A DNA stretch of 33,276 nt from assembly GCA_947595235.1 (NCBI GenBank), contig CANQEP010000008.1, positions 1 through 33,276 of the forward strand, in the 5' to 3' direction. Numbering within the stretch: position 1 is the first letter of the stretch; every line of letters begins with the position of its first letter. The notes below the pieces were generated by a model, which made no database searches, was not told the DNA's origin, and was given only the letters and a program-made list of their open reading frames with translations. Shown piece by piece: positions 4,416 to 33,007 of this stretch. This stretch comes from an uncultured Clostridia bacterium (GTDB lineage: Bacteria > Bacillota > Clostridia > Christensenellales > UBA1242). A program made the position numbers and the translations under genes.

Positions 4416-5573
4416 TTACATCTTCTCTATAATTTTGGTGAATTTAGAGCCAAAATCGTTTGCCTCTACACCATTTATAGTAAAGATTTTGTGCGAAAAA
4501 ATCAACTGTTTTTCAAGACTAATTTCAATAGTGGCAAGGTTTGTCCCCATTTTTATGGGCGCAGAGAGTTTGCCACATGGAATAGTCTTGACCTCTATCT
4601 TATTTAGTTCACTTCTTTTGAGAGGATATGAAAAGTCGCAGTCCATAAAAACGTCAATTTTGTCTAGGCTTGCATTTTCCACTTGCACCTCGCACAACTT
4701 GTCGCCACTTTTTGCAAGAGGATACAACTTGTACTCGTCAAAAGCCATTTTCAAAAGTTTTTCGCAGTCCTCAAACATTGGCACGCAATTTAGAAGCACG
4801 CAAACAACTTGCATTCCGTCTTTTGTTGCGCTCCCAACAAAACATCTACCCGCGCTACGAGTGTAGCCCGTCTTTACCCCGTCGGCGAATTCGAAATTTG
4901 AAAGCATCTTGTTCTTGTTTATTAGTTTTCTTGAAAAGTTTGAGCGAAGTTCGTTCGCAACTTGATACTCCTTTGTTGAAACAATCTCACTGAAAATTGG
5001 ATTTTTTAAAGCATACGCAGTTATGAGTGCGAGTTCCTTGGCGGTCGTGTAGTGGTCGCTTGCGGGTAGGCCGTGCGGATTTTTAAGTTTGGTGTTTACT
5101 AGCCCTTTTTCTTTAAGAAAGGCATTGACATCTGCAACAAATTTCTCTTCGCTCCCACTCGTTGCAATGGCAAGCGCTACAGCACAATCGTTACCACTTC
5201 TCAGCATAAGTCCATACAAAAGTTCGCGTATTGTGAGATGCTCACCATCTTTAAGACCTATGCTTGTTCCCTCAATTCCTGATGCCTCTTTTGGGATACA
5301 AAAAACTTTGTCAAGGTCGCTCGTGTGCTCAATGACATATATTGCAGTTATGATTTTTGTTGTGCTTGCCATGGGAAGTTTCTCGTCTTGGTTTTTGTAA
5401 TATAAAAGTCTTCCGCTGGACTTTTCAATGACTGCCATTGCCTTTGCACTGGTCAAATTTTCTTCTTTGCTCGCTACAAAAGCGCACGTGCCGAGCGGTT
5501 CAAAAAACGCAAATAATATGCATAAAATAGTGAAAAATGGCATCAAAACTACAAATTTGGCGTATTTTTTCAT
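4416..5573 (-). CDS. dacB: D-alanyl-D-alanine carboxypeptidase, sporulation DacB-like
   Basis: This low-molecular-weight penicillin-binding protein removes the terminal D-Ala of peptidoglycan stem peptides and so limits cross-linking. It has 385 residues. An N-terminal signal peptide (about 1-34) is followed by the S11 serine peptidase domain with all three motifs: STTK (S70-K73), SGN (126-128) and KTG (234-236). The C-terminal PBP5-type beta domain (about residue 290 on) ends without an obvious amphipathic anchor. The start overlaps the ytfJ stop (ATGA). The order ytfJ-dacB-rluB and the sporulation neighbours point to the spore-cortex DacB role. A second family member (dacF) lies at 9179. 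Confidence 0.9.
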   Translation of the reverse strand: MKKYAKFVVLMPFFTILCILFAFFEPLGTCAFVASKEENLTSAKAMAVIEKSSGRLLYYKNQDEKLPMASTTKIITAIYVIEHTSDLDKVFCIPKEASGIEGTSIGLKDGEHLTIRELLYGLMLRSGNDCAVALAIATSGSEEKFVADVNAFLKEKGLVNTKLKNPHGLPASDHYTTAKELALITAYALKNPIFSEIVSTKEYQVANELRSNFSRKLINKNKMLSNFEFADGVKTGYTRSAGRCFVGSATKDGMQVVCVLLNCVPMFEDCEKLLKMAFDEYKLYPLAKSGDKLCEVQVENASLDKIDVFMDCDFSYPLKRSELNKIEVKTIPCGKLSAPIKMGTNLATIEISLEKQLIFSHKIFTINGVEANDFGSKFTKIIEKM

Positions 5574-5953
5574 TTTTCCTTGTCCTTTTTTAACATTTCT
5601 GCGAGGTTATCAATGACCTCGGGAATGGTCTCAAGAATTTTCTCAACGGGGCTCTTGTCGTCAATATGAATGAGTTTTACGTCGCCCTCTTTGACTTTCA
5701 AAAGTCCAACGGGTTGAAGTGTTACCCCCGCACCGCTACCCCCGGCAAAGGGATAGCGATTGCTCTCTTTGAATTGTTTGACAGTTCCATACTCGCCACC
5801 ACCCGCAACAAAGCCAAGCGACACCTTTGTTAATGGGAATATCAGCGTTCCGTCTTTGCTCTCAAATGGCACGCCAATTACCGTGTTGCTTTCGGCGACC
5901 GACTTGATTTTTTCTATTGCCGTTGTCATTATCTCATTTATTTGATTATCCAT
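5570..5953 (-). CDS. ytfJ: GerW family sporulation protein YtfJ
   Basis: YtfJ/GerW is a small forespore protein required in Bacillus for normal spore germination; its biochemistry is unknown. The 127-residue product has the family's KIKSVAESNTVIGVPF opening, then the glycine-rich block FVAGGGEYG and a second block FAGGSGAGVTLQPVGLL. AAGGAG stands seven bases before the ATG. It overlaps DUF2953 by 8 nt and dacB by 4 nt, so it is firmly inside the operon. Full family length, no anomaly seen. Confidence 0.92.
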   Translation of the reverse strand: MDNQINEIMTTAIEKIKSVAESNTVIGVPFESKDGTLIFPLTKVSLGFVAGGGEYGTVKQFKESNRYPFAGGSGAGVTLQPVGLLKVKEGDVKLIHIDDKSPVEKILETIPEVIDNLAEMLKKDKEK

Positions 5954-6576: not shown

Positions 6577-7548
6577 TTAAACTATATCCCAGTCGTCATC
6601 GCCATCGTCATCATCATCCCAGTCGTCATCATCGTCGTCGAAGTCATCATCGTTGTCTTCTTCTTCGTCGTCTTCGTCGTCGTCGAAGTCATCATCGTTG
6701 TCTTCTTCTTCGTCGTCTTCTTCGTCGTCGAAGTCATCGTCGTTGTCTTCATCTTCTTCGTCGTCTTCGCTAACATTTTCGTCGTTTTGCTCAGCATTGT
6801 TTTCGAAGTCGTTTGATTGGTTTTCTTTTTCGTTCTCGGGCTCGGTCTCACCCTCTAGCATTTCGAAGTCGTTTTTCTCGCCAATAAGTTCGCCGTCAAG
6901 GTCAAGGCTTTTAGGGGTATCGCCATTTGCCATGGCAACATCTTCGCTGAGCCCAAGTTTTTTCTCCATTTCTTCGTCGGTCTCTTGGATTTCGAAGTGG
7001 TTATAGAGCCTGTTGTCGTCGCTATGAATGACTTTGACCCTTTCAAGAAGTTCATTATAGTCGGGAAGTTCGTCAAGCGATGTGATGTTGAACCTTTTCA
7101 AAAACTCATCGGTTGTTCCAAACAAAACGGGCTTCCCAACCGTGTCTTTTCTTCCGACAATTTCAATGAGGTTATGCTCAAGCAAGATGTTGATTGCATA
7201 GTCCGAACTAACGCCACGGATTTCTTCAATTTCTAGCCTTGTTACGGGCTGTTTGTAGGCAATTATTGATGCCGTTTCAAGGGTTGCACGGCTAAGATTT
7301 CTTTGCCTTATTGGGTTAAGAACCTTGCTGACCTCTTCGCCATAGGCTCCGTTGGAGGCGAATTGAAGTTTGTTGTTGAACTCCAAAAGGACAATCCCCG
7401 ACCCCTCTTTATATTTGTTTTTGAGTTTTTTCACAGCATTTTTAATGTCTTGCTTTGTGGCGTCAATCTTGCTTGTTATGTCGCTAATGTCAACGGCATC
7501 GCCACTCACAAACAATATGCTTTCAAGTATGTTTTCAAGATTGTCCAT
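6577..7548 (-). CDS. scpB: Segregation and condensation protein B with a long acidic tail
   Basis: ScpB is the winged-helix partner of ScpA and SMC in the chromosome condensin. The first ~190 of 323 residues match the family, with NLENILESILFVSGDAVDI at the start and the conserved RQRNLSRATLETASIIAYKQPVTR and EIRGVSSDYAI blocks. Residues from about 215 on are extra: an Asp/Glu tail that includes a 15-residue tandem repeat (EDDEEEDNDDDFDD) and ends DDDWDIV. Most ScpB proteins stop near 190-200 residues. The start overlaps scpA by 14 nt, with AGAGGA upstream. A terminator follows at once. The core assignment is firm; the role of the tail is not known. Confidence 0.93.
   Translation of the reverse strand: MDNLENILESILFVSGDAVDISDITSKIDATKQDIKNAVKKLKNKYKEGSGIVLLEFNNKLQFASNGAYGEEVSKVLNPIRQRNLSRATLETASIIAYKQPVTRLEIEEIRGVSSDYAINILLEHNLIEIVGRKDTVGKPVLFGTTDEFLKRFNITSLDELPDYNELLERVKVIHSDDNRLYNHFEIQETDEEMEKKLGLSEDVAMANGDTPKSLDLDGELIGEKNDFEMLEGETEPENEKENQSNDFENNAEQNDENVSEDDEEDEDNDDDFDDEEDDEEEDNDDDFDDDEDDEEEDNDDDFDDDDDDWDDDDDGDDDWDIV
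6640..6770 (-). repeat. 45-bp tandem repeat encoding the ScpB acidic tail
   Basis: Three in-frame copies begin at 6640, 6685 and 6730 (GAAGTCATC...). The first two are almost identical; the third has several changes and is shorter. Each encodes about 15 residues of mixed Asp, Glu, Asn and Phe. Because the period is a multiple of three, copy-number changes would keep the frame. Confidence 0.85.
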
Positions 7549-11920: not shown

Positions 11921-13072
11921 TTAGTTGTCAATCATCCAATCAATATACACCCCGAAGCCCTTTGTTGGGTCGCTTACAAAAACGTGGGTTATTGCGCCAA
12001 CAAGTTTGCCATTTTGAATGATTGGGCTACCGCTCATACCTTGAACAATACCGCCCGTCTTTTCGATAAGGCGCTCGTCAACCACTCTTATGACCATGCT
12101 CTTGTTGTTTGAGGTGGTTTGGTTAACAAGTTTGATTATCTCTATGTCAAACTCCTCGGGCTTTGCGCCGTCAACCGTTGTCAAGATAGTTGCCTTGCCT
12201 GTCCTAACGCTGTCACGACTGGCAACTTCCATTTTCCTTTCAATTTGATTTCTTTCTATATACTCTTGTTTCACCTTTCCAAAAACGCCAAAGTCTGTGT
12301 TTTTGTCGATACTTCCCGCCTCTTCGCCATTTCTTAAGAAAAGCCCTCTAAGTTCGCCCGCGGTTCCTCTTGTGCCCTTGTTAACTCCAACAATGCTACA
12401 CTTATAAATGCCCCCACCCGCAACTGGCAAAACAACGTCTGTGTCTATGTCAGTCACGGGGTGTCCAAGTGCGCCAAAGCGCAAATTGTCCTCTCGAATA
12501 TATGTGAGTGTGCCAACGCCCGCCGCATTGTCTCTTATCCAAATCCCCAGCCTATACGAAGATGTGGACGCCTCCAGCGACGGGGTGACTATTTCAAAAA
12601 ACTTCTCTTCATTTCGCCTAACACCCACCTTTACGGGCTCGCCATTACTCTCGCTCAATATCTTTTCCATGTCCATGGCAGAGGTAATATTCTTCCCGTT
12701 AACGCTAAAAATGATGTCGCCCACCTTGATGTTTTTGCCTTCGCACGGCCTTGTGTCGCCAAACGCAGTCTGGACAGAGCCAACCGCGATGACGATAACG
12801 CCCTCGCACTCAAGCGTGAACCCAAGAGGATATCCCCCAACATAAACGCTTTGACCCGCCGTCGTGACCTCGTTTTTTGCTTTTTCCTTAGCCCCAAAAA
12901 AACTCTTTATAATGTCCCAAAGGCTGGGGCGCGCGCAGACCTCATACTTTGATGTCGACGAGCAAGCAAGTGCAGTCCACTCACTTTCGCTCTTTTGGGC
13001 TCCACCAAACACGCTGAAAAATGTCAAAAGTGCAACAATAACGCAAATTAGCCTATTAAAGCAAATTTTCAT
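11921..13072 (-). CDS. spoIVB: SpoIVB, sporulation serine peptidase (S55)
   Basis: SpoIVB is made in the forespore and secreted into the intermembrane space, where it cleaves SpoIVFA and triggers sigma-K activation. From the chosen ATG it has 383 residues. It has an N-terminal membrane anchor (about 5-24), a PDZ domain (about 80-165, with GDIIFSVNGKNI) and the S55 peptidase domain. The inferred triad is H204 (in GALGHPVTD), D332 and S347 (in GMSGSP); the spacing agrees with B. subtilis SpoIVB as I know it. The track's TTG start would place a terminator-like hairpin inside the coding region, so the ATG at 13072 is preferred. It lies between recN and spo0A, the usual order. Confidence 0.93.
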   Translation of the reverse strand: MKICFNRLICVIVALLTFFSVFGGAQKSESEWTALACSSTSKYEVCARPSLWDIIKSFFGAKEKAKNEVTTAGQSVYVGGYPLGFTLECEGVIVIAVGSVQTAFGDTRPCEGKNIKVGDIIFSVNGKNITSAMDMEKILSESNGEPVKVGVRRNEEKFFEIVTPSLEASTSSYRLGIWIRDNAAGVGTLTYIREDNLRFGALGHPVTDIDTDVVLPVAGGGIYKCSIVGVNKGTRGTAGELRGLFLRNGEEAGSIDKNTDFGVFGKVKQEYIERNQIERKMEVASRDSVRTGKATILTTVDGAKPEEFDIEIIKLVNQTTSNNKSMVIRVVDERLIEKTGGIVQGMSGSPIIQNGKLVGAITHVFVSDPTKGFGVYIDWMIDN

Positions 13073-13078
13073 TCTAGA

Positions 13079-13109
13079 AAAAACCACTCTAATCATAAGA
13101 GTAGTTTTT
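13079..13109 (-). terminator. Terminator-like hairpin between recN and spoIVB
   Basis: AAAAACTACTCT and AGAGTGGTTTTT form a 12-bp stem with one wobble around a 7-nt loop, and end in a T-run on the minus strand. It lies 40 nt past the recN stop and only 6 nt before the preferred spoIVB ATG. It may end recN transcripts and also affect spoIVB expression. Confidence 0.65.
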
Positions 13110-13149
13110 GCACTGGCGAAATATATATGTATCAATTTTGAAAAAAAAC

Positions 13150-14832
13150 TTAAAATTTTGACGCGCTCTCTAACAACTCTTTTGCGTGCGACAGAGAGTG
13201 CTCGGTAAGACTGCCACTTATGAGCCTTGCAATCTCTTCCACCCTCTTTTCGCCCTTGACTTTTGCAACAGAAGTGGTGGTGGTATTATTGTTCTCTACC
13301 TTTTCGATAACAAAATGATTGTCTGCAAAACTTGCTATTTGAGGAAGATGCGTCACGCAAATGACCTGAGAAACCTTGCTGACCGCCTTCAACTTTTGCG
13401 CAAGGGTGAGCGCCATAACACCGCTAACGCCCGTGTCAATCTCGTCAAAGACAAGCGTCTGGATGCCCTCGATTTTTGCGGTGATGTTCTTGACGGCAAG
13501 CATAAATCTGCTCATCTCACCTCCGCTGGCAACGGCTTTTAGTGGTTTTAGTTCACCGCCAAGGTTTGCCGAAAACATGAACTCTATTCTGTCAAGCCCC
13601 GCGCTCGTTCTTTGCTCTATATCAATAGGCTCAAACGACACAACAAATGACGCACTCTTCATGCCAAGGTCCTTGAGCTCCTCTTTTATCTGCCTTTCAA
13701 ACTCCTTCGCGCACAACTTTCTTGCTTCGGTCAAAAGTTTTGCATCTTGCAACAATTCATCCTTATATTTTTCTCGCAGAACCTTTAATTGTTCAATGCG
13801 CTCACTCGCGTTAACCAGCCTTTCATACTCGTTTCCAACGCGCGTTCTGTACTCGTTTATCTCTTCAATGCTTGACCCGTACTTTTTCTTAAACGATGAA
13901 AGAAGGTCAAGCCTATTTTCGTTGATTTTTGCCTTTTCCTCATCAATAAACAACTTGCCAAGAAGGTCATCAAGGGTGGAAGAAATGTCGTCAATCTCTA
14001 GCCTTGACGCCTCTAGCCTTTCAACCAGCGGATTGAGGTCTTCGCAGTACTGAGCCACTCCACTCAAAAGTATGCCAGCCTTCTTTATTGTCTCGACTGC
14101 GCCTTGATACTCGTAGCCGTCGCCACTAGTGAGTTTCATGGCGCCATTTATTGCTTCCAAAATCTTTTCTTGATGCAGAACTTGATTTCTAAACGCCTTG
14201 AGTTCCTCCTCTTCACCCTCGTAGAATGAGGCTTCGTCAATTTCGTCAATTTGGTACTTATACAAATCGACAAGGCGGTTTCTCTCAAGGTCGTCGCCAT
14301 TAAATGAGTCAAGTTCAGTGATAACATCGTCGTACTTTTTCAGTGCCGACAAGTATGCGTCTTTGCACTTGACAATTTCTTTGCCGCCGAACGTGTCAAG
14401 GATTTTTATGTGGCTTTGCACTTTCAAAAGGTTTTGGTGCTCAAACTGACCGTGAAGGTCAAGAAGTGGCGAAGATAACTTCTTTAACATGCCCAAAGTG
14501 AAGATATTTCCGTTCACGCGAATCTCATTTCTCCCGTCAAGTGAGAGTCTTCGGCTTATGATAATTTCGTCGTCCTCTTCGCCCACAAGTTCTTTCAAAG
14601 TTTCTTTAACAAGAGGGCTAACGGATGAAAAAACCGCCTCAACGCTCGCCGTTTTTTCGCCATAAGAAATGAGCGACTTGTCTGCCTTTTCACCAAGCAA
14701 GAGGGACAGCGCATCAACAACAAGTGACTTGCCCGCGCCCGTCTCACCCGTGAGGACATTTAGCCCCTTAGAAAATTCTATGACTTGGCTCTTTATAAGA
14801 GCGATGTTGTTTATGCTAAGTTTGTCAAGCAT
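13150..14832 (-). CDS. recN: DNA repair protein RecN
   Basis: RecN is an SMC-like ATPase that acts at double-strand breaks. The 560-residue protein has Walker A GETGAGKS (residues 29-36) at the N-terminus and a long coiled-coil middle region (about 150-370). The C-terminal ATPase half has the ABC-type signature block ASGGEMSRFMLA and Walker B TLVFDEIDTGVSG, followed by the D-loop and CVTHLPQIA. Length and domain order are normal. It begins 9 nt after xseB. The order xseA-xseB-recN-spoIVB-spo0A is conserved in Firmicutes. Here ispA, dxs, tlyA and argR, often found between xseB and recN, are absent. Confidence 0.96.
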   Translation of the reverse strand: MLDKLSINNIALIKSQVIEFSKGLNVLTGETGAGKSLVVDALSLLLGEKADKSLISYGEKTASVEAVFSSVSPLVKETLKELVGEEDDEIIISRRLSLDGRNEIRVNGNIFTLGMLKKLSSPLLDLHGQFEHQNLLKVQSHIKILDTFGGKEIVKCKDAYLSALKKYDDVITELDSFNGDDLERNRLVDLYKYQIDEIDEASFYEGEEEELKAFRNQVLHQEKILEAINGAMKLTSGDGYEYQGAVETIKKAGILLSGVAQYCEDLNPLVERLEASRLEIDDISSTLDDLLGKLFIDEEKAKINENRLDLLSSFKKKYGSSIEEINEYRTRVGNEYERLVNASERIEQLKVLREKYKDELLQDAKLLTEARKLCAKEFERQIKEELKDLGMKSASFVVSFEPIDIEQRTSAGLDRIEFMFSANLGGELKPLKAVASGGEMSRFMLAVKNITAKIEGIQTLVFDEIDTGVSGVMALTLAQKLKAVSKVSQVICVTHLPQIASFADNHFVIEKVENNNTTTTSVAKVKGEKRVEEIARLISGSLTEHSLSHAKELLESASKF

Positions 14833-14841
14833 GGTTTCTCC

Positions 14842-15060
14842 TTAGTTTTCGATATCGTCAAAAGGCTTGATTGTTATTTCGTCAAGTTGCTTTTTTATTA
14901 TTTCAACTTTGCCTTCGGTCTGCTTTAATTTTTCAAAACAAACCTTAGAAAGTTCAACGCTCTTTTCAAAGAGTTTGAGCGCCTCGTCAAGACTGATGTC
15001 GCCCCCCTCTAACGCGCTTAAAATGTTTTCTAGTTCTTTAACAGCCTCTTCGTAGTTCAT
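14842..15060 (-). CDS. xseB: Exodeoxyribonuclease VII small subunit
   Basis: XseB is the small subunit that coats the helical arm of XseA in exonuclease VII, which degrades single-stranded DNA to short oligonucleotides. The 72-residue protein is fully typical: YEEAVKELENILSALEGGDISLDEALKLFEKSVEL. It overlaps the end of xseA by 4 nt and is followed 9 nt later by recN. Confidence 0.95.
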   Translation of the reverse strand: MNYEEAVKELENILSALEGGDISLDEALKLFEKSVELSKVCFEKLKQTEGKVEIIKKQLDEITIKPFDDIEN

Positions 15061-16247
15061 AATTTTTTCTCCTTCAAACTTTTAACTTGGCTAATTATGA
15101 CGCCGTCTTCAAGCAAAGTCTCAATCTCGTCGCCCACCTTCAACTTTTTGATTTTCACGCTCTCGCCATTTTTCAAAACTTTTGCATACCCTTGCTTTAA
15201 AATAGTCAGCGGATTGGACTTTTCAATCTTTGCAACCAGAACGTCAAGTTTTGACTTTTCTTTGCCAACACGCGTGTCAACTCTGCTTATGATGTTTTGA
15301 GTGAGCAACTTAACTTTTGCCGACGCGTCTTTCAAAAGTAGGTTAACGTTGCCAATTATGGAATTTATGGCAGTTCCAATGGCATTTTTCTTTTCATCAA
15401 TTAAGTCAACCGCCAGCGATGATATCTTGTCTTTAACGGCAGTCACATATTCGAGTTCTTGGTAGTAGTCAAAGACCGCAAGTTCAGCCGCGACCGACGG
15501 AGTTGGTGCTCTAAGGTCGCTTGCAAAGTCCAGAATTGAAAAGTCGGTTTCGTGCCCAATCGCAGATATTATCGGCAGTTCACTCTTAAAAGCCGCCATT
15601 GCCACTTCTTCTGTGTTAAAGGGCGACAAGTCCTCAAACGAGCCTCCGCCCCTTGCAACAATTATGACATCAACATTTTTTGCCTTGTTAAAGTACTCAA
15701 TTCCGCCGACAATTTCTTTCTCTGCGCCCGCGCCTTGCACTCTTGACGGATAGACCAAGATGTTTGTGTAGGGGTTTTTTTTGCGAGTGACGTGGTAGAT
15801 ATCTCTAATGACCGCGCCCGTCTCACTTGTAACAATGCCAATGGTGTTTGCATGGGTTGGAATTTTCTTTTTTCTGCTCTCGTCAAAGATGCCTTGACTT
15901 TCAAGCCTTGCCTTAAGTTCAAGGAACTTTTTGTAGAGTTCGCCCATGCCATACATCTCGACCTTGCTGACAACGAACGACAATTTGCCAAGTTTAACGT
16001 GGTAGTTTAGTCGACCTGTAACAACAACTTTGTCGCCATTTTTTGCAAAAGGTGCAAAGCACGAAAACTTGACACACGAAAGTTGAGCCCCCTCTTCTTT
16101 AAGGTCGAAGTACGCAATGGAGTTGGAAATTTTGAAGTTTGTCACCTCTCCATAAACGCTTATGCCGTAAAGGAACTCCTCGTTATCAAAAATTTGCTTG
16201 ATATAGTTATTAAGTTGGGTTATTGAAAGTGTTAAATTTTGCATCAT
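15057..16247 (-). CDS. xseA: Exodeoxyribonuclease VII large subunit
   Basis: XseA is the catalytic subunit of exonuclease VII. The 396-residue protein begins with the N-terminal OB-fold (TLSITQLNNYIKQIFDNE through about residue 100). The catalytic domain follows, with VTSETGAVIRDI, IIVARGGGSFEDLSPFNTE and the conserved SAIGHETDFSILDFASDLRAPTPS block (about residues 230-253). Part of the coiled-coil arm follows, then a basic C-terminal strand domain (KQGYAKVLKNGE). It overlaps nusB by 4 nt and xseB by 4 nt. It is slightly shorter than many homologues, probably in the coiled-coil arm. Confidence 0.95.
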   Translation of the reverse strand: MMQNLTLSITQLNNYIKQIFDNEEFLYGISVYGEVTNFKISNSIAYFDLKEEGAQLSCVKFSCFAPFAKNGDKVVVTGRLNYHVKLGKLSFVVSKVEMYGMGELYKKFLELKARLESQGIFDESRKKKIPTHANTIGIVTSETGAVIRDIYHVTRKKNPYTNILVYPSRVQGAGAEKEIVGGIEYFNKAKNVDVIIVARGGGSFEDLSPFNTEEVAMAAFKSELPIISAIGHETDFSILDFASDLRAPTPSVAAELAVFDYYQELEYVTAVKDKISSLAVDLIDEKKNAIGTAINSIIGNVNLLLKDASAKVKLLTQNIISRVDTRVGKEKSKLDVLVAKIEKSNPLTILKQGYAKVLKNGESVKIKKLKVGDEIETLLEDGVIISQVKSLKEKKL

Positions 16248-18343: not shown

Positions 18344-18811
18344 TTATGAGACTGGACTAATTCTAACTTGCGTTGCCAAAACTCCCGTTTCTCTCACCAA
18401 AATTGAAAGTATGGCAGCAACCTCGTCAGAGGTGAGTCCATTCGAGGTCTTAACAAAGACGTTGAGTTTGTCTCCATTTGTCCTCACAATAACATCCTCA
18501 TATCCACGCGCAGCAATCAATGTTTCAAGGTTAGACTCCTCTGCAATTTGAGCAGAAATGGCATCGCGCTTTTGAATTGCATCTGCCCTTTCCTCTGCAT
18601 TGGTTGATGTGTTTATAACATCCTCATAGATTTGAAGTTGATAATTTCTTGCCGCAACAATGTCAGCCCTAACTGATGTGAAGAAGTTTGCCGATGAGGT
18701 TGCCGGCTCACTCACACTATTTTTTCTGTTCAAAACAACGTTGAGGTATCCCGTAACAACCAACAATAGCACCATGGACACCAAAATAAATATCTTTTTC
18801 TTTTTACTCAT
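18344..18811 (-). CDS. spoIIIAH: Stage III sporulation protein AH
   Basis: SpoIIIAH sits in the mother-cell membrane and binds forespore SpoIIQ to form the intercellular channel. From the chosen ATG the protein has 155 residues. It has a short basic N-terminus, one membrane span (about 8-25) and an extracellular domain of the YscJ/FliF type (about 65-150) ending VLATQVRISPVS. The start at 18811 is supported by AAGGAGG eight bases upstream; the track's extension of 11 residues runs through that site. It is shorter than B. subtilis SpoIIIAH (about 218 residues), mainly in the region between the membrane span and the ring domain. Confidence 0.9.
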   Translation of the reverse strand: MSKKKKIFILVSMVLLLVVTGYLNVVLNRKNSVSEPATSSANFFTSVRADIVAARNYQLQIYEDVINTSTNAEERADAIQKRDAISAQIAEESNLETLIAARGYEDVIVRTNGDKLNVFVKTSNGLTSDEVAAILSILVRETGVLATQVRISPVS

Positions 18812-18843
18812 AAGTTTTCCCTCCTTAAAAAACAAAATTTTCA

Positions 18844-19401
18844 TTATCGCCCCTCCAAGACTTCCACTTTTGAAATATCAACAGAGAGTATGGTTGCAGC
18901 AATGTTTGTTAGCGTAACCTTCATTTTTGTGTCTTTTGCTCCCGTCGCAACGATAAGAACCCCAACAATTTTCGGCAATATTTCAAGTTCGACAACTGGA
19001 GAAGTTATGGTTCCATTTCTAGCCTCATAGACCGTGGTCTTTTTGCTTGTCACACTATTTCCCGCATCGCCACTTTCTTCTTGCACCTCTTCAAGATACT
19101 TAAAGGTTGGACTGCTCTCTACCATAACAAACACATTTACTCTGCCAATATCTTTGACGTTTACTAGTACTCTCTCAAGTCTATTCTCAAGCGCATCGCA
19201 ATATTCCAAAGACTTGAAAGAAGATGAAAGGTCATCAAAAGATGTTTGGTTTTTCTCACTCTCTTTCTTTGGAAGAAAAGAACTTAAAAAGATAACCGCA
19301 ACAATAACTGCCAGAACAATAACGATGGCCGACTTAACTTTTTTCTTTCCCCCTTCAGAGCCAAAAATCTTTTTAAAGAGTGATTGCTTGCCCTCCTCCA
19401 T
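18844..19401 (-). CDS. spoIIIAG: Stage III sporulation protein AG
   Basis: SpoIIIAG forms a large ring in the intermembrane space that is part of the SpoIIIA-SpoIIQ feeding-tube channel. The 185-residue product has one membrane span (about residues 23-42) and a ring-building domain with LENRLERVLVNVKDIGRVNVFVMV and VVELEILPKIVGVLIVATGA. The start is placed at the second ATG (19401), because AAGGAG abuts the first ATG but lies six bases before the second. It follows a 121-nt gap after spoIIIAF, the longest inside the operon. Confidence 0.93.
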   Translation of the reverse strand: MEEGKQSLFKKIFGSEGGKKKVKSAIVIVLAVIVAVIFLSSFLPKKESEKNQTSFDDLSSSFKSLEYCDALENRLERVLVNVKDIGRVNVFVMVESSPTFKYLEEVQEESGDAGNSVTSKKTTVYEARNGTITSPVVELEILPKIVGVLIVATGAKDTKMKVTLTNIAATILSVDISKVEVLEGR

Positions 19402-19528
19402 TGTCATCTCCTTGATAAATAATATTCAAATGGGTTCTCTTCAAATGACAGTTTGATTTGTATAATTTTCGCCAAATTGGTCGAAATGTGGCACTTTTTT
19501 CATATAAACATGGTGTATTTTGCGTTTT

Positions 19529-19723
19529 TTATAATGATGAGAAAATGCTTTCAACTCCCCCTTCAAACAAAAAGTCGCAAAGAGGTGAAACAATGCTGAA
19601 GAAAAGATAGAGTCCAATTATCGAAAGAGTAAAGGCTCTCATTCTCCCCTCGGGGAGCATTATTGACGCAATAATCTGCAAGACCGCACAACACACAACA
19701 TTTACGATAAATCCCGAAAACAT
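19529..19723 (-). CDS. spoIIIAF: Stage III sporulation protein AF, unusually short
   Basis: The 64-residue product matches only the N-terminal membrane part of SpoIIIAF: a first span (about 4-21), the conserved LPEGRMRAF turn, and a second span (about 30-50), ending GGVESIFSSL. Family members are normally near 200 residues and carry a soluble C-terminal domain after the two spans. The stop is TAA, and the next 121 nt up to spoIIIAG encode nothing in any frame that looks like the missing part. The start at 19723 is chosen because GAGGG precedes the ATG; an upstream GTG overlapping the spoIIIAE stop is possible. The assignment rests on position and the membrane pattern. Confidence 0.8.
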   Translation of the reverse strand: MFSGFIVNVVCCAVLQIIASIMLPEGRMRAFTLSIIGLYLFFSIVSPLCDFLFEGGVESIFSSL

Positions 19724-19731
19724 ACTTTCCC

Positions 19732-20931
19732 TCACAGCACATTACTTAGCGTTATTGTCACAAGTATCATAGTAAGAAAATACATGAGCGCAACACCAAT
19801 AATTATTGCAACAAGCAATTTGAAACTTTTTGCAATGTCATAAAGAAGGGTTGAACTTCTCTTGTCCATGGTCGGTTCAATGACTCCCGCAAGCAACTTT
19901 AATGAAAGTTCCAAAAGTCCAATGCTTAGAAGCGGCATGATAATTGTTGCAAAGAGCAAAATTATTCCCGCAAAGCCAACTGCGTTCTTAACAATCAAAC
20001 CGCCCGCCTTGATAAGTTCAAAGCCGTCTGAGATATAGCCCCCTAAAAATGGTATATAGTTCTTTATGGCAAACTTGGTTGCCTTTATGCTCACCTTGTC
20101 GCTACTGCCCGCGGTTATGCCTTGAATGGTCAAAAAGCTCAAAAAAATCGCAAAAGTTGTTCCAATAACCCACTTGAAGAGTGATGCAATAAAATCTCGC
20201 AACTTGTCTAGCCTTGTGTTTTTTGAAAGGTTACCAATAAAAGAAAGAATGAGACTGAAAGAAAATAATGGAAGCAAAACATATATGAAGATATTTGAAA
20301 CAGCATTTGACAAAAATGCGAGCATTGGCGAATACGCCTTGACCGAGACCACCCCACCCATGAGCCCCATAAGAGTTATGAGAATGGGAAAAATGCTGTT
20401 CATTTGCTTTTGAAGTGACAAAAGACTATTTTTCGTTGAACTGACTAGCCCTGCCGAAAGGCTTGCAACAATGATGACAACAATTGCAAAACAGACAAAG
20501 CATATCATCTCACCCACGCCACTTATCTTGCTCGACCTGATGTTATTAAACATTGAGCAAAGCAAAACAATAACAAGTATTGAAAGAAGGGGCGCAAGCA
20601 ACTTCTTTATTGAGTCTTTTAAGGAAGATACAACGATGTTGAGAATATCCGCAATGCTTATGGTTTCGTCACCCGCAATGACGCTTAAAACAAACTCCTT
20701 GAATCCAAGCCCGCCAAAGAGTTTGAAATCAAACTCATCTGCCACCTCTTCAAGATAAGAAAAATCAATGTCGTCAACAATATCGCTTGTCTTTTCTTCA
20801 AGTTCCTTTTCTATGTCTTCTTGAGGTTCATCTGCATAGCAATAATTTGTCGACAAATTCGATAAATTCGTCATAAAAAATAAAAACGCAAAAAACAACA
20901 AAAAATACGGAATAATTTTCTTTTTAAGCAC
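19732..20931 (-). CDS. spoIIIAE: Stage III sporulation protein AE
   Basis: SpoIIIAE is the large polytopic membrane component of the mother-cell SpoIIIA complex. From the GTG chosen here it has 399 residues. It has a signal peptide (about 1-34, cleaved near YCYADE), an acidic extracytoplasmic segment, and then about eight membrane spans with the conserved MNSIFPILITLMGLMGG and AGGLIVKNAVGFAGIIL blocks. The track start at 20991 lies inside spoIIIAD in another frame. The GTG at 20931 shares one base with the spoIIIAD stop and leads straight into a proper signal peptide. A perfect dyad covers this junction. Confidence 0.92.
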   Translation of the reverse strand: MLKKKIIPYFLLFFAFLFFMTNLSNLSTNYCYADEPQEDIEKELEEKTSDIVDDIDFSYLEEVADEFDFKLFGGLGFKEFVLSVIAGDETISIADILNIVVSSLKDSIKKLLAPLLSILVIVLLCSMFNNIRSSKISGVGEMICFVCFAIVVIIVASLSAGLVSSTKNSLLSLQKQMNSIFPILITLMGLMGGVVSVKAYSPMLAFLSNAVSNIFIYVLLPLFSFSLILSFIGNLSKNTRLDKLRDFIASLFKWVIGTTFAIFLSFLTIQGITAGSSDKVSIKATKFAIKNYIPFLGGYISDGFELIKAGGLIVKNAVGFAGIILLFATIIMPLLSIGLLELSLKLLAGVIEPTMDKRSSTLLYDIAKSFKLLVAIIIGVALMYFLTMILVTITLSNVL

Positions 20932-20942
20932 TAAATTAGTGC
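20928..20942. repeat. Perfect dyad at the spoIIIAD-spoIIIAE junction
   Basis: GCACTAA-A-TTAGTGC is a perfect 7-bp inverted repeat around one base. It contains the spoIIIAD stop and the GTG start of spoIIIAE. In RNA it could fold only as a weak hairpin with a slightly opened loop. It may simply be a coding coincidence. Confidence 0.5.
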
Positions 20943-21311
20943 GATTATTGTTTCCACAAGACTTTTTACTATGGGCACAGCCAACAAACATATTGCTACT
21001 TTACCTCCCACAATAATTTTATCTGCAATATTTTTATTTCCGCTATCTTCTGCCAAATCTGCCGTAAATTCTGTTATGTATCCAACGCCAATAACCTTTA
21101 TAATTGGTGTGACGATGTCTATCTTTACACTTGACAAACTATTTATGTATGTGAAACTCTCTATTATTTCTTCGACTTGATTTGTTATTAGCATAAATAT
21201 CAAAAGACCGCCACAAATGTTTGCCAAAACCGCAAATTCGGGCTTATATTGCTTCAAAACTATGTTGATTATGACAGTTACAACTCCTACACCGAGTATT
21301 TTTAAAAGCAT
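20931..21311 (-). CDS. spoIIIAD: Stage III sporulation protein AD
   Basis: SpoIIIAD is a small SpoIIIAC/AD-family membrane protein of the mother-cell channel complex. The 126-residue product opens with LLKILGVGVVTVIINIVLKQYKPEFAVL, has three to four membrane spans and the conserved IKVIGVGYITEFTADLAEDSGN block, and ends in a hydrophobic helix. The start at 21311 has AGGGGA in front of it; the track's extension reads back into spoIIIAC. The 5' end lies 10 nt after the spoIIIAC stop. Confidence 0.94.
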   Translation of the reverse strand: MLLKILGVGVVTVIINIVLKQYKPEFAVLANICGGLLIFMLITNQVEEIIESFTYINSLSSVKIDIVTPIIKVIGVGYITEFTADLAEDSGNKNIADKIIVGGKVAICLLAVPIVKSLVETIIALI

Positions 21312-21321
21312 ATTACTTCCC

Positions 21322-21519
21322 CTAGTACAAATCAAATAAGGTTTTTAGGCTGTCAAAAAGGCCACTAACCATATTCAAAACCATAATAAGAGAAATGACA
21401 AGTCCAGCAAGCGTGGCAAGTGTTGCAATCTCGGACTTACCTTGATGTTGAAGAATTTGACTTATAACTGCAGTCAAAATTCCAATAGCGGCAATCTTGA
21501 ATATGATATCAATGCTCAT
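21322..21519 (-). CDS. spoIIIAC: Stage III sporulation protein AC
   Basis: SpoIIIAC is a 65-residue membrane protein of the SpoIIIA complex with two spans. It shares the SpoIIIAC/AD family pattern: DIIFKIAAIGILTAVISQILQHQGKSEIATLATLAGLVISL. It lies 9 nt after spoIIIAB and 10 nt before spoIIIAD. Length is normal. Confidence 0.94.
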   Translation of the reverse strand: MSIDIIFKIAAIGILTAVISQILQHQGKSEIATLATLAGLVISLIMVLNMVSGLFDSLKTLFDLY

Positions 21520-21528
21520 CTTTGTCTC

Positions 21529-22023
21529 CTATATGATAATTATGCTCAGTACTAGCCCCACCGCGATGCTGAGTTTGTAGTATAGCCCCTCGTTTTTCTT
21601 TCGATAATCTTCTGCACGGCTAGAAAAGTTCTTTATTTCACTTGAAGCCCCCTCAATGTTGCCAAGTTCGACCTCGCTGTTGCCCGCGCCTAGCCCCAAA
21701 AAGAAACGAATTAACAATGTTTTTTCTTCTTTTGAAAGAAAAGACAGTTCTTTTGCGTTTTCTATTTCATTTACATTTCCGCTTGCGTATTTATCAAAAA
21801 TTAGAGAAAATCGCTTTTTTTCGTTTATGTCGCTAATGCTTGAAAGAAAGTCATTAAAAACGTTTTTGATAACATCTTGCTTGAAAATTATATTCCCCTT
21901 CAGTTTTTCAGTAAGAAGCAACATATCTTTGAAGAAGGCATCCCGCAAAATCATCTTTTTGCACAAATACTTTCCCACAAAGGCAGAAGAAACAACCATA
22001 CAGACGCAAATTATGTATATCAT
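21529..22023 (-). CDS. spoIIIAB: Stage III sporulation protein AB
   Basis: SpoIIIAB resembles GspF-type membrane proteins of type II secretion and type IV pili, and works with the SpoIIIAA ATPase. The 164-residue product has one N-terminal span, then the helical cytoplasmic domain with FLGLGAGNSEVELGNIE (the conserved LG..D..QI-type block) and a C-terminal span ending LVLSIIII. The ATG at 22023 is preferred over the track start. AGGAGG lies about 14 nt upstream of it, farther than usual, so the exact start is less sure. Confidence 0.9.
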   Translation of the reverse strand: MIYIICVCMVVSSAFVGKYLCKKMILRDAFFKDMLLLTEKLKGNIIFKQDVIKNVFNDFLSSISDINEKKRFSLIFDKYASGNVNEIENAKELSFLSKEEKTLLIRFFLGLGAGNSEVELGNIEGASSEIKNFSSRAEDYRKKNEGLYYKLSIAVGLVLSIIII

Positions 22024-22061
22024 AAAAAACGCAAAATCCTCCTCTTGAATGTGTAAAAATA

Positions 22062-22964
22062 CTAAAAATATATGCAATTTAGGTTTTCGTCTAGTATTTG
22101 TTCAATTGTTCCCACACCTTTATTGCTAGACAAAACGATGTATCTTTCAAATATCTTTTTCGTCATAAGTTCCTTAAAATCGTATTTTTCAAAAAGGTCA
22201 AGGTGGTTGTTTGCATGAACGGATGCAATGACTTTCACTCCCGACCTCATTGCTGTTTTACACGCCAAGATATCATCTTCGCTCATAAGTTCATCGGTTA
22301 TAATGATGTCAGGTCGAAGCGCACGAATGCCATTTGTGAATGCGTATTTCTTTGTTCCCCCAGAAACGATGTCTGTGTTCTCTCCAACGTCAAGCATGGC
22401 AACTCCATCACAACATGATGCAAGTTCAAACCTTTCATCAACCAAGAGGCAGTTATAAATTCTGTCAAGTTTTGAGATGTTTCTTGCAATATCTCTCAGC
22501 AGCGTTGTTTTTCCCGCACCTGGTGGCGAAATGATGAGCGTGCTCTTCACTCCATTGTCACTTGCAATAAATTTGAAGACCTCTTTTGAACAGCCAACCA
22601 CCTCATGCGGTATTCTTATGTGGATGGAGGAAATGTTCTTTATTGTTGTTGGCATAAAGTTGTCACTTGAAACACTTTCACCCGCGATGCCAATCCTTAT
22701 ACCCCCCTTCGCGGTTATATAACCTTGCTTTATTTGACTGTTATAGGCGTAGAGCGAGTTTTCTGTCGCAGACCTTAGAACAAGTTCAAGTTCCTTTGTT
22801 GTTACGTAGACTTTTTCTCCGCTCGGATAAGTTAGGTGCATATTTTTTCCTTTGTACATGACAAGCGCGGGGCAATTCCTTCTTAGGCGGATTTCTTCAA
22901 GGTGAGCAATGTCCAGTCTTTCAACAAGGCTATAAATATTCTCGGGCAAAAGCCACTTTAACAT
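22062..22964 (-). CDS. spoIIIAA: Stage III sporulation protein AA (ATPase)
   Basis: SpoIIIAA is the cytoplasmic ATPase of the SpoIIIA complex, related to secretion ATPases such as GspE, and needed for late forespore gene expression. The 300-residue protein has an N-terminal domain with HLEEIRLRRNCPALV and QGYITAKGGIRIGIAG. Walker A is PPGAGKTT (about residues 147-154) and Walker B is DIIITDE (about 220-226); the C-terminal His-containing VKVIASVHANN block follows. AGGAGG precedes the ATG. It is the first gene of the spoIIIA operon, which lies immediately after efp, the same order as in B. subtilis. No convincing sigma-E promoter was found in the 66-nt gap. Confidence 0.95.
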   Translation of the reverse strand: MLKWLLPENIYSLVERLDIAHLEEIRLRRNCPALVMYKGKNMHLTYPSGEKVYVTTKELELVLRSATENSLYAYNSQIKQGYITAKGGIRIGIAGESVSSDNFMPTTIKNISSIHIRIPHEVVGCSKEVFKFIASDNGVKSTLIISPPGAGKTTLLRDIARNISKLDRIYNCLLVDERFELASCCDGVAMLDVGENTDIVSGGTKKYAFTNGIRALRPDIIITDELMSEDDILACKTAMRSGVKVIASVHANNHLDLFEKYDFKELMTKKIFERYIVLSSNKGVGTIEQILDENLNCIYF

Positions 22965-29458: not shown

Positions 29459-29699
29459 GTTTAATCTCCTCATAAATGGAGTCATCGACCTCGCCAAGAG
29501 TTCGAGAAATGAGTTTTGACTTTATGGCCTTTGCAAGGCATTCACTCTTTTTGCAAAGATACACGCTTCTTCCATTTATTCTTTTGTCTTTCTCAACGCT
29601 TATTTTGCCGCTGGGCTCTCTCACAATCTTAACAAGTTCGCCCTTTTCTTTCCTTTCGCGACAAATAGCGCACATTCTTATTGGTGATTTTTTTTCCAT
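29442..29699 (-). CDS. ylxR: RNA-binding protein YlxR (DUF448)
   Basis: YlxR is an 85-residue nucleic-acid-binding protein encoded after nusA. The family pattern is plain: PIRMCAICRERKEKGELVKIVR, then NGRSVYLCKKSECLAKAIK. The three Cys that are typical of the fold are present. The gene starts at the last base of the nusA stop region and overlaps ylxQ by 17 nt from the corrected start. Reported roles include control of RNase P RNA or of transcription, depending on the species. Confidence 0.92.
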   Translation of the reverse strand: MEKKSPIRMCAICRERKEKGELVKIVREPSGKISVEKDKRINGRSVYLCKKSECLAKAIKSKLISRTLGEVDDSIYEEIKLAQNK

Positions 29700-30826
29700 T
29701 AGTCGTCAAGGTCTCCAAAGATGCCTTCGATATCGTCAAGCGAGATGACTTCTTCTTGCTTTGACTCTTCTTTTTGCTCGTCTTCTTTTGCTTTTGACTC
29801 GCTCTTGACGTCTATTTTCCAGCCCGTGAGCCTTGCCGCAAGTCTGACATTTTGACCGCTTTTGCCGATTGCAAGGCTGAGTTTGTCATCGGGAACAATG
29901 ACCTTTGCTTGCTTTAGTGACTCGTCAATTTCAACCGAGATGACCGGTGCGGGCGAAAGACTCCTTGCGATGTACTCAAATGGGTCATCGCTATAGATGA
30001 TAAGGTCAACCTTTTCGCCACCAAGTTCAGAAACAACGGCGTTGACCCTTGTCCCCTTGTTACCAACGCACGCGCCAAGTGGGTCAATCTGAGGATCGTC
30101 GCTGTAGATTGCCATCTTTGTTCGGTATCCCGCCTCTCTAACAATATTCTTGATGATAACATGGTTAGAAGCAATTTCGGGAACCTCGTTCTCAAAAAGT
30201 TTTCTTACAAATCCAGGGTTTGACCTTGAAACAATGGCTTGAACACCGCGAGCGGTCTCGCGAAGTTTCTTGATGTAGACTCTCAGACGGTCATTGATTT
30301 GATAGTGCTCACTTGCGATTTGGTCAGATGGCATCAAAACGCCCTCGATTTGAGTTCCAGTGAGTTCAAGATAGTATGTGTCGCTCTCTTGACGGCGAAT
30401 AAATCCAGTAACAAGGGTGTCGACCTTTTCTTCAAGTTCACCATAGGCGATGCTGCGCTCAGCCTCGCGAAGTTTTTGAGTTACAACTTGCTTTGCTGTT
30501 CCAGCGGCAATGCGCCCAAAGTCTTTTGGAGTGACCTCTTCACTAACTTGGTCACCAACCTTGTATGACTTTTTGATTTTTTGAGCATCTTCCAACGAAA
30601 TTTGAGTTGTTTCGTCTTCTACCTCGTCAACAACGGTCTTGTAGGCGTAGACTTTGATGGTGCTCTTTTCGGGATTGAGTTTAACCTCAACTGCCTTTGA
30701 CTCGCCAAAATTCTTTTTGTAGGCGGCAACAAGTGCAGACTCAAGAGTTTCGATGAAAAATTCTTTTTTGATACCTTTTTGTTTTTCTAGTTCATCAAGC
30801 GCTAGAAAGAAATCTTTGTTAATCAC
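29699..30826 (-). CDS. nusA: Transcription termination/antitermination factor NusA
   Basis: NusA binds RNA polymerase and nascent RNA, and modulates pausing, termination and antitermination. The 375-residue protein has the N-terminal RNAP-binding domain (1-125), an S1 domain (about 130-200, with VDTLVTGFIRR), KH1 (DPLGACVGNKGTRVNAVVSEL) and KH2 (DKLSLAIGKSGQNVRLAARLTGWKI). It ends with an acidic tail. The start is GTG with AAGGAG upstream. Length is normal for Firmicutes, which lack the E. coli acidic repeats. It is the likely cis-regulator of its own operon leader. Confidence 0.96.
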   Translation of the reverse strand: MINKDFFLALDELEKQKGIKKEFFIETLESALVAAYKKNFGESKAVEVKLNPEKSTIKVYAYKTVVDEVEDETTQISLEDAQKIKKSYKVGDQVSEEVTPKDFGRIAAGTAKQVVTQKLREAERSIAYGELEEKVDTLVTGFIRRQESDTYYLELTGTQIEGVLMPSDQIASEHYQINDRLRVYIKKLRETARGVQAIVSRSNPGFVRKLFENEVPEIASNHVIIKNIVREAGYRTKMAIYSDDPQIDPLGACVGNKGTRVNAVVSELGGEKVDLIIYSDDPFEYIARSLSPAPVISVEIDESLKQAKVIVPDDKLSLAIGKSGQNVRLAARLTGWKIDVKSESKAKEDEQKEESKQEEVISLDDIEGIFGDLDD

Positions 30827-30837
30827 TTTTTTTCTCC

Positions 30838-31305
30838 TTAAAATTCTATATATTTTGTGGCTTTTGAGATGAGGCTTCTTTCAATTTCAATCTCTTTGCC
30901 ACCCTTTTCTTTGATAACTATTGCCTCGGCTGTGAAACTTAAAAGAACGCCAACAAACTTCTTCTTTAGCCCAATCTTCTTAAATAAGTTGACTTCTAGC
31001 ACCTCGCCAATATTCCTTTGAAAGTCCTTGTCGGTTTTAAGTTCGCGGTCAAGCCCCGGTGAAGAGACGTTGAGTGTGTAACTCTGCCCGTTTGTGGGGT
31101 CAAGTTCGTCAAGTGGCTCGTCAATGGCGTTGTGAACAGCCTCGCAATCGTCAATGGTCACGCCCCCCTTTTTGTCGATGTAGATTGTTAAGTTCATGCC
31201 CGTGTTTTTCTTTTCGTAGGCAACATCAACAATCTCTATGCCAAGACCAAGGTCAGCAATAATTGGCGTTATAAATTCTTCAACTCTTTCTTTTATGTTT
31301 GCCAC
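30838..31305 (-). CDS. rimP: Ribosome maturation factor RimP
   Basis: RimP supports maturation of the 30S subunit. The 155-residue protein has the alpha/beta N-terminal domain with LGLGIEIVDVAYEKKNTGMNLTIYIDKKGGVTIDDCE, the central YTLNVSSPGLDRELKTDKDF (the strongest family signature) and the SH3-like C-terminal domain. The start is GTG with AGGAGG five bases upstream. It is first in the rimP-nusA-infB operon, behind a leader with a terminator-like hairpin. Confidence 0.95.
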   Translation of the reverse strand: MANIKERVEEFITPIIADLGLGIEIVDVAYEKKNTGMNLTIYIDKKGGVTIDDCEAVHNAIDEPLDELDPTNGQSYTLNVSSPGLDRELKTDKDFQRNIGEVLEVNLFKKIGLKKKFVGVLLSFTAEAIVIKEKGGKEIEIERSLISKATKYIEF

Positions 31306-31432: not shown

Positions 31433-33007
31433 CTAAATTATGAAGTTTTCGGTGTCTTCTCCCAGTTTTAACATCACTTCTGCCGTTGCCAAGGTGTCAA
31501 AGACCGCCCTATGGGCATGGTCAAGGCTTACCCCAAGTTTTTCGGCAACAGAAATGAGTTTGTAGTTCTTCACTCCCTTCACTTGCTTTTGCGCAAGTTT
31601 ATAGATGTCGATGACGGGGTTGTCAAAGTTGTAGCCACAAAGTTTGCCAAAGTGAGTTAGAAATATCATGTCAAAGCCAATGATGTTGTAGCCCGACAAA
31701 TAACTATTCCTCGTGAACTTGTAAAAGTCCGGGATAACATCTTGATAAGTCGGCTTGTCTTTGACGTCGTCGTCAACAATGCCGTGGGTCTTTGTGGAGT
31801 CTTCGGGAATGTGCATCTCGGGGTTAATGAGGCATGAAAAACTCTCAATAATCTTTCCGTCACGCACTTTGACCGCACCAATTTCAATAATTTTGTCCGC
31901 CCCGTCAAGCCTCAGCCCCGTTGTTTCAAAGTCAAAAACAACAATGTCTTTGCCAACAAAAAATGAATTGATTTTGTTTTCGGTGCTGGTGAACAAGTCG
32001 ACTTGAGAATAATATTCAAGGGGCTCGGGAAAAACAACCTTGTAGTTTGCTGGCTCGCTCTTATAAACAATCTCCTCTTCGAACTTTTCGGGAAGAGTGC
32101 AGAGGCTGATTGCCTTCACTTTCATGTCCAAATTGTGCTTAAAATTGTTTTCGTTGAGCGTCCCCAAAAGGATGACCGACTCGCCATCTTGCAGTTTTTG
32201 CATATTCTCATACGTCTTTTTGTTTGCAAAGTACACGCAGTTCATTTTGCCCGAAAAATCTTCCACTGTGAACTTGAAATACTTTCTCTCTTTTGGCGCC
32301 TCTTCGGTCGCATCGCCCTCTTCTTTGTTTTTCTTTTTTGGCTCGAACGACGCTTCTTTGAAGTATAAAATCTTTCCGCAAATGACCACCTCTTGACCCG
32401 AGGTCGTGCAGTCTTTTATGTAGGTCGCGTTGGTCTCGGTCAACTCTCCAACAAGGGGCTGAACATTGCTGACCGAGATAACTCTCACGGGGTTTGAGGC
32501 CTCGAACACCAACTCCTCTTCGGGCTCAAATGCCTCAATCTTTTCCACCTCTTCTTCGCGCTTTTCTATTGAAAGAGAGATGTCAACATAGAAGTTTTCT
32601 TTCAGTTTTTCGCAAAGACTTCCGCGAATATCTCGACTTTTCGCATACTCGTACTCTTGCTCATAAAAGCCAAGGCAAACGCTCTTTTCTTTGCCCTCGC
32701 AATCGCAACTTTTTATGAAAAACTTAATTGAAGGGTAATTGGTTTTTAGAAATCTTTTTACAAATTCTGTGACCGCCTCGTTGGTGACAAAGTTCTTTAT
32801 GAACTTGACGTCATAAGAAAAGCCACTTGGCAAAAGCGAACACAGTTCTTTTGAAATTTTCTCTCTTTCGCTCGTGCCAAGAATGACGCCGTCTTTGTAA
32901 AAGAGTTCAACAGAACATTCGCCACTATTTTTGTCCAAAATGGCTTTTTTTAGTTTCAAATCATACTTGTTTTCTGTTAGACTATTTAACTTCTCAATAA
33001 TATCCAT
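31433..33007 (-). CDS. PolC-derived OB-plus-exonuclease protein lacking PHP and polymerase domains
   Basis: PolC is the replicative polymerase of Firmicutes and normally has about 1,400 residues. This gene is at the polC position (rseP before, rimP after) but encodes only 524 residues. The N-terminal domain (about 1-160) and an OB-fold (about 203-303) are followed at once by a complete DEDDh 3'-5' exonuclease: DFETTG (D359, E361), GYNIIGFD (D446) and HAHRAVFD (H499, D504). The PHP and polymerase domains are missing on both sides of the exonuclease. The reading frame ends cleanly with a stop; an operon promoter follows. It may act as a separate proofreading or accessory subunit, with the polymerase encoded elsewhere. 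Confidence 0.85.
   Translation of the reverse strand: MDIIEKLNSLTENKYDLKLKKAILDKNSGECSVELFYKDGVILGTSEREKISKELCSLLPSGFSYDVKFIKNFVTNEAVTEFVKRFLKTNYPSIKFFIKSCDCEGKEKSVCLGFYEQEYEYAKSRDIRGSLCEKLKENFYVDISLSIEKREEEVEKIEAFEPEEELVFEASNPVRVISVSNVQPLVGELTETNATYIKDCTTSGQEVVICGKILYFKEASFEPKKKNKEEGDATEEAPKERKYFKFTVEDFSGKMNCVYFANKKTYENMQKLQDGESVILLGTLNENNFKHNLDMKVKAISLCTLPEKFEEEIVYKSEPANYKVVFPEPLEYYSQVDLFTSTENKINSFFVGKDIVVFDFETTGLRLDGADKIIEIGAVKVRDGKIIESFSCLINPEMHIPEDSTKTHGIVDDDVKDKPTYQDVIPDFYKFTRNSYLSGYNIIGFDMIFLTHFGKLCGYNFDNPVIDIYKLAQKQVKGVKNYKLISVAEKLGVSLDHAHRAVFDTLATAEVMLKLGEDTENFII

Follow-up and report, generated by a model that had tools for sequence, protein, structure and literature searches.

PolC counts as the replicase that defines the Bacillota, and in DnaQ (epsilon), the separate exonuclease of E. 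coli, the clamp motif is located after the exonuclease domain. In Bacillus subtilis, template, DnaE and PolC form a complex in which the PolC exonuclease proofreads DnaE in trans, and DNA synthesis by DnaE is stimulated by a polymerase-dead PolC (PMC5627055). PMC3919608 gives QL[S/D]LF as the consensus clamp motif, reports that Firmicutes DnaE1 retains a conserved putative epsilon-binding patch, and proposes the N-terminal region of PolC as a clamp loader contact. According to the title of a study cited in PMC12926913 (FEBS J 2011), this region is a domain pair related to tau domain V. DnaE1-only systems are described in both sources, and in the searched parts of PMC3919608 and PMC12926913 we found no mention of a DnaE1-only branch that carries a PolC relic. 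Our literature search, which covered open-licence papers, found neither a polymerase-less PolC nor this DnaE1-only branch of Clostridia described.

Here we describe a branch of gut Clostridia that uses DnaE1 alone and keeps the N-terminal half of PolC at the native polC locus; Candidatus Coproplasma belongs to this branch. Taken as a whole, we consider it probable that the PolC polymerase was lost once, that DnaE1 serves as the sole replicase, and that the remaining half of PolC acts as a clamp-tethered proofreader in trans.

A PolC derivative without PHP and polymerase

The window analysed here, 33,276 nucleotides long, is one entire contig (C8) of a draft genome (1.04 Mb, 79% complete). It carries an open reading frame with an ATG start (31433..33007, minus strand) encoding a protein of 524 aa. 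A partial rseP, cut by the contig end (33023..33276, minus), lies 15 nt upstream. On the other side, rimP, the downstream neighbour of polC (30838..31305, minus), starts 127 nt after the stop codon, and nusA (29699..30826, minus), the gene used for our neighbour-gene tree, is also present. Elsewhere in the window, sporulation genes were found at 18344-22964, 11921-13135 and 5570-5953, with spoIIIAA and spoIIIAE scoring below cut-off and spoIVB and gerW/ytfJ above it; this gene content suggests that an organism with a very small genome, about 1 Mb, forms endospores. Another gene (6577-7548, minus) encodes an ScpB whose long C-terminal tail, past the ScpB domain (match to residues 3-167 of 323), is strongly acidic and rich in Asp/Glu.

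The preliminary description had called the gene between rseP and rimP a PolC derivative lacking PHP and polymerase, and Pfam, hhalign and the neighbouring genes confirmed this; structure matches agree with a stand-alone PolC N-terminal/OB/exonuclease protein. Pfam detected RNase_T at residues 356-511 (E 2e-34) and OB at 240-299. The NCBIfam PolC model scored 142 bits against a cut-off of 873, its best stretch covering the exonuclease only. Pfam gave no match to a model of the N-terminal part of PolC, so homology of the N-terminus rests on profile-profile alignment and on the HMM of the stand-alone family, which matches PolCs collinearly in the same two blocks, among them those of Bacillus, Paenibacillus and Clostridium. 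In the hhalign comparison, residues 1-330 match the N-terminal/OB region of sister-family PolCs in collinear order (probability 99, E 1e-18), and the whole protein aligns to PolC residues 1-650 (E 3e-70).

AlphaFold2 modelling from a 24-sequence alignment (mean pLDDT 84) predicted two N-terminal repeats followed by an OB fold and, after a flexible linker, an exonuclease, with PolC 9qpc as the closest fold; by sequence, too, the nearest solved structures are PolC exonucleases. The N-terminal domain (residues 1-150; 32558..33007, minus) is KH-II-like and consists of two alpha-beta-beta-alpha-beta repeats (pLDDT 83-91), as seen by hhalign to PolC. The OB fold (residues 176-304; 32096..32482, minus) matches the OB of G. 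kaustophilus PolC (3f2b) and was found by Pfam in 20 of 24 orthologues. The DEDDh 3'-5' exonuclease (residues 354-517; 31457..31948, minus) is of the PolC type, with 38% identity to 2p1j. It is complete, as first described: D359, E361, D446, H499 and D504 do not vary among the 23 orthologues aligned.

The frame does end directly after the exonuclease, and with it the protein lacks the C-family polymerase core. The earlier statement that no PHP precedes the exonuclease holds and can be refined: in 37 full-length PolCs the first PHP half is a segment of 81-113 residues between OB and exonuclease, and here that segment has been replaced by a linker of about 45 residues (305-353; 31949..32095, minus), as revealed by alignment, AlphaFold2 and comparison of PolC segments. 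The PHP that the exonuclease interrupts in PolC is absent on either side, the second half having gone together with the polymerase. The protein is therefore more than a plain truncation after the exonuclease, since the PHP segment between OB and exonuclease is lost as well.

The linker motif and the fate of the exonuclease

We found that the linker carries QVDLF (Q335-F339; 31991..32005, minus), a predicted sliding-clamp binding motif that the preliminary description had not included. The pattern Q-x-x-[LM]-F is present in the linkers of 43 of 52 stand-alone proteins with an intact exonuclease, when 0.4 would be expected from shuffled linkers, and its position is constant at about 20 residues ahead of the exonuclease core. 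A looser clamp motif occurs in 50 of the 52 (4.8 expected), and Q335 is invariant in our orthologue alignment A1. Among 37 full-length PolCs, none has the motif in the corresponding segment, and 26 have it C-terminally (strict pattern, last 40 residues). The presence of the motif in the linker and its absence at that place from PolCs indicate a new gain that went with the loss of the C-terminal motif.

In most genomes of the window's family, the stand-alone protein is the only RNase_T/DnaQ-type exonuclease detected. The exonuclease is degenerate, with catalytic residues lost and the N-terminal/OB half kept, in f17 (L134, L136, L139), f29/g98 (L137, L138) and part of f20 (L140, L149), and these lineages are scattered over separate parts of the NusA tree. 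A separate DnaQ-like exonuclease of about 190 aa (L135, L142) is present in f17. In two genomes of the window's own family f1 (G012 and G009), the exonuclease domain is gone and the N-terminal/OB half remains, as proteins of 338 and 214 aa (L143:4077-5090, minus, and L144:2491-3132, plus). None of the seven degenerate cases has the strict clamp motif, compared with the 43 of 52 intact ones (Fisher p 3e-5, uncorrected for relatedness), and exonuclease and clamp motif thus seem to travel together. Two proteins, L049 (G040, f6) and L079, have an intact exonuclease core and no recognizable clamp box in the linker.

The DnaE of the window's genome (G000:C1, about 11948-15631; 1367 bits against a DnaE alpha cut-off of 1260) has an intact set of nine metal ligands in its PHP domain, HHDHEHCDH, and a clamp motif, QFSMF. 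All 25 DnaEs checked have intact PHP ligands, including those from genomes in which the exonuclease has been lost. The 24 of them that come from other genomes, stand-alone and PolC-bearing, likewise have an intact clamp motif, except for one fragment that does not cover it. A separate proofreader may therefore be redundant. In G012, the search detected no RNase_T-type exonuclease at all, so the PHP domain of DnaE1 is the only candidate proofreader left there. Proofreading by the stand-alone exonuclease is apparently dispensable in some lineages.

These findings could also fit a remnant that is bound to the clamp and serves as a nuclease in repair or 3'-end processing, acting on mismatches, Okazaki fragments or lesions, with the DnaE1 PHP alone doing the proofreading. 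Clamp boxes occur on repair proteins too, and both the intact PHP in every DnaE checked and the loss or degeneration of the exonuclease in several sublineages are in line with such a role, but we consider it unlikely: the remnant derives from a replicase, holds the place of polC, keeps the replisome-docking N-terminal region of PolC, and is usually the sole DnaQ-type exonuclease in family genomes.

Loss of the exonuclease in several sublineages that kept the N-terminal/OB half also means that this half must have another role. It might be a scaffold linking DnaE1, clamp loader and single-stranded DNA, the exonuclease being a passenger in part of the clade. Persistence of the half next to a degenerate or absent exonuclease would agree with this, as would the relationship of the PolC N-terminal region to tau domain V given in the title cited above. 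A scaffold as the main function is nevertheless improbable, because the large majority of the proteins keep both catalytic residues and clamp box, which argues that the exonuclease is under selection in most lineages. The trans-acting proofreader remains the reading we prefer.

Polymerase inventory and single origin of the branch

The preliminary description had offered two explanations, a split replicase with polymerase and PHP in another gene, or an intact polC elsewhere. At E<=1e-60, the PolC model matched 0 of 98 family genomes, nearly all of them at least 95% complete. Among 60 family genomes, almost all of them 97% complete or better, 58 have a single C-family polymerase domain, which belongs to a DnaE1; in the other two, none was found. 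The window's genome has one such polymerase, the DnaE described above, and the matches within family genomes comprise the PolC remnant and one DnaE only. Both explanations are excluded by this inventory; we found no point in their support, and the chance left to either is close to nil. As DnaE1 is the only C-family polymerase left, it must copy the chromosome and be the sole replicase of the stand-alone branch.

Of 60 relatives, 59 gave a match. In the window's family and roughly twelve further families belonging to the order, the matching frame is about 500-560 aa long, whereas twelve families have PolC above the model's cut-off. Among 160 genomes sampled from the order, the stand-alone form is common. 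In a class-wide sample of 293 genomes, no stand-alone form from outside the order was among the matches listed, which were full-length PolCs or short separate exonucleases, and 200 genomes of the phylum revealed no stand-alone spread outside the order at E<=1e-75. A GTDB scan added 27 stand-alone loci, including one in Candidatus Coproplasma stercoripullorum, a genus that we take to be placed in Christensenellales by GTDB.

The occurrence of orthologues about 520 aa long throughout the window's family and in many sister families of its order upholds the earlier view that the gene is no product of simple decay or misassembly. The window is a single contig of a draft metagenome-assembled genome, but a normal polC broken by an assembly or sequencing artefact has a negligible probability, since the same architecture and synteny recur in dozens of independent genomes, some with fewer than 10 contigs. 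The same recurrence rules out a pseudogene.

In a protein tree of the shared domains, a single branch with support 100 separated 52 stand-alone proteins from 45 PolCs. With Bacillus and Paenibacillus as the root, a NusA tree united 51 stand-alone loci in one clade (support 100), nested in the clade of the order (99) beside PolC-bearing families. The locus order dxr-rseP-(ispG)-X-rimP-nusA is common to the stand-alone and full-length types. One loss of the polymerase explains both the single branch of the protein tree and the nested NusA clade; the stand-alone proteins have a single origin. An ancestral precursor of PolC was ruled out, because stand-alone genomes nest within PolC-bearing Clostridia in the Bacilli-rooted tree.

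A proposed replisome and its relation to known systems

We propose that, in the common ancestor of one branch of the order, PolC lost its polymerase and both halves of PHP while the gene kept its native locus, and that the N-terminal domain, OB fold and exonuclease remained, joined by a new short linker with a clamp box. DnaE1, once the partner of PolC, would have taken over chromosome replication, and the remnant would most likely have become its trans-acting proofreading subunit. The QxxLF motif is predicted to tether the remnant to one cleft of the beta clamp, and the N-terminal domain may dock on DnaE1 and/or the clamp loader; clamp binding, association with DnaE1, proofreading and the exact docking are what we infer. 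The OB fold would then bind single-stranded 3' ends while the DEDDh site trims mispaired ones, backing up the PHP of DnaE1. Editing in trans would thus have been retained after the loss of the polymerase, with the clamp tether newly added. More tentatively, this could be a further kind of replisome, in which DnaE1 works with a PolC-derived subunit that bridges clamp, single-stranded DNA and DnaE1 or clamp loader and edits in trans, some sublineages keeping only the bridging N-terminal/OB half as a scaffold of an undescribed type.

The branch offers a natural experiment on the roles of the PolC N-terminal domains, on replicase turnover and on the conversion of a fused proofreader into a separate subunit held by the clamp. 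A further implication is that ibezapolstat and other inhibitors of PolC would find no polymerase to act on in these Bacillota. The stand-alone gene could be mistaken for a truncated polC.

With PolC-type DNA polymerase III of B. subtilis and Clostridia, the stand-alone protein shares the collinear N-terminal domain, OB fold and DEDDh exonuclease and the place next to rimP and nusA. It differs in lacking the PHP halves, the palm, fingers and thumb and the C-terminal clamp motif, in being about a third as long, and in its new clamp motif between OB and exonuclease. The likeness to DnaQ/epsilon of E. coli lies in a separate DEDDh exonuclease beside a DnaE1 polymerase and in a clamp-binding motif, here predicted. 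Unlike epsilon, however, the protein is much nearer the PolC exonuclease, has KH-like and OB domains ahead of the exonuclease, carries its clamp motif before rather than after that domain, and has no identified PHP-binding tail. Its best match is PolC and its whole N-terminal half is homologous to PolC, so it is no orthologue of bacterial DnaQ. Editing of DnaE products by a PolC exonuclease, as proposed here, has its counterpart in B. subtilis (PMC5627055), where PolC is the main polymerase, whereas here the editing half alone remains. Finally, with the DnaE1-only systems of PMC3919608 and PMC12926913, the branch shares a single DnaE1 whose PHP and clamp motif are intact and which is the sole C-family polymerase; in contrast to them, it arose within Clostridia that have both PolC and DnaE1, and it retains a relic of PolC.
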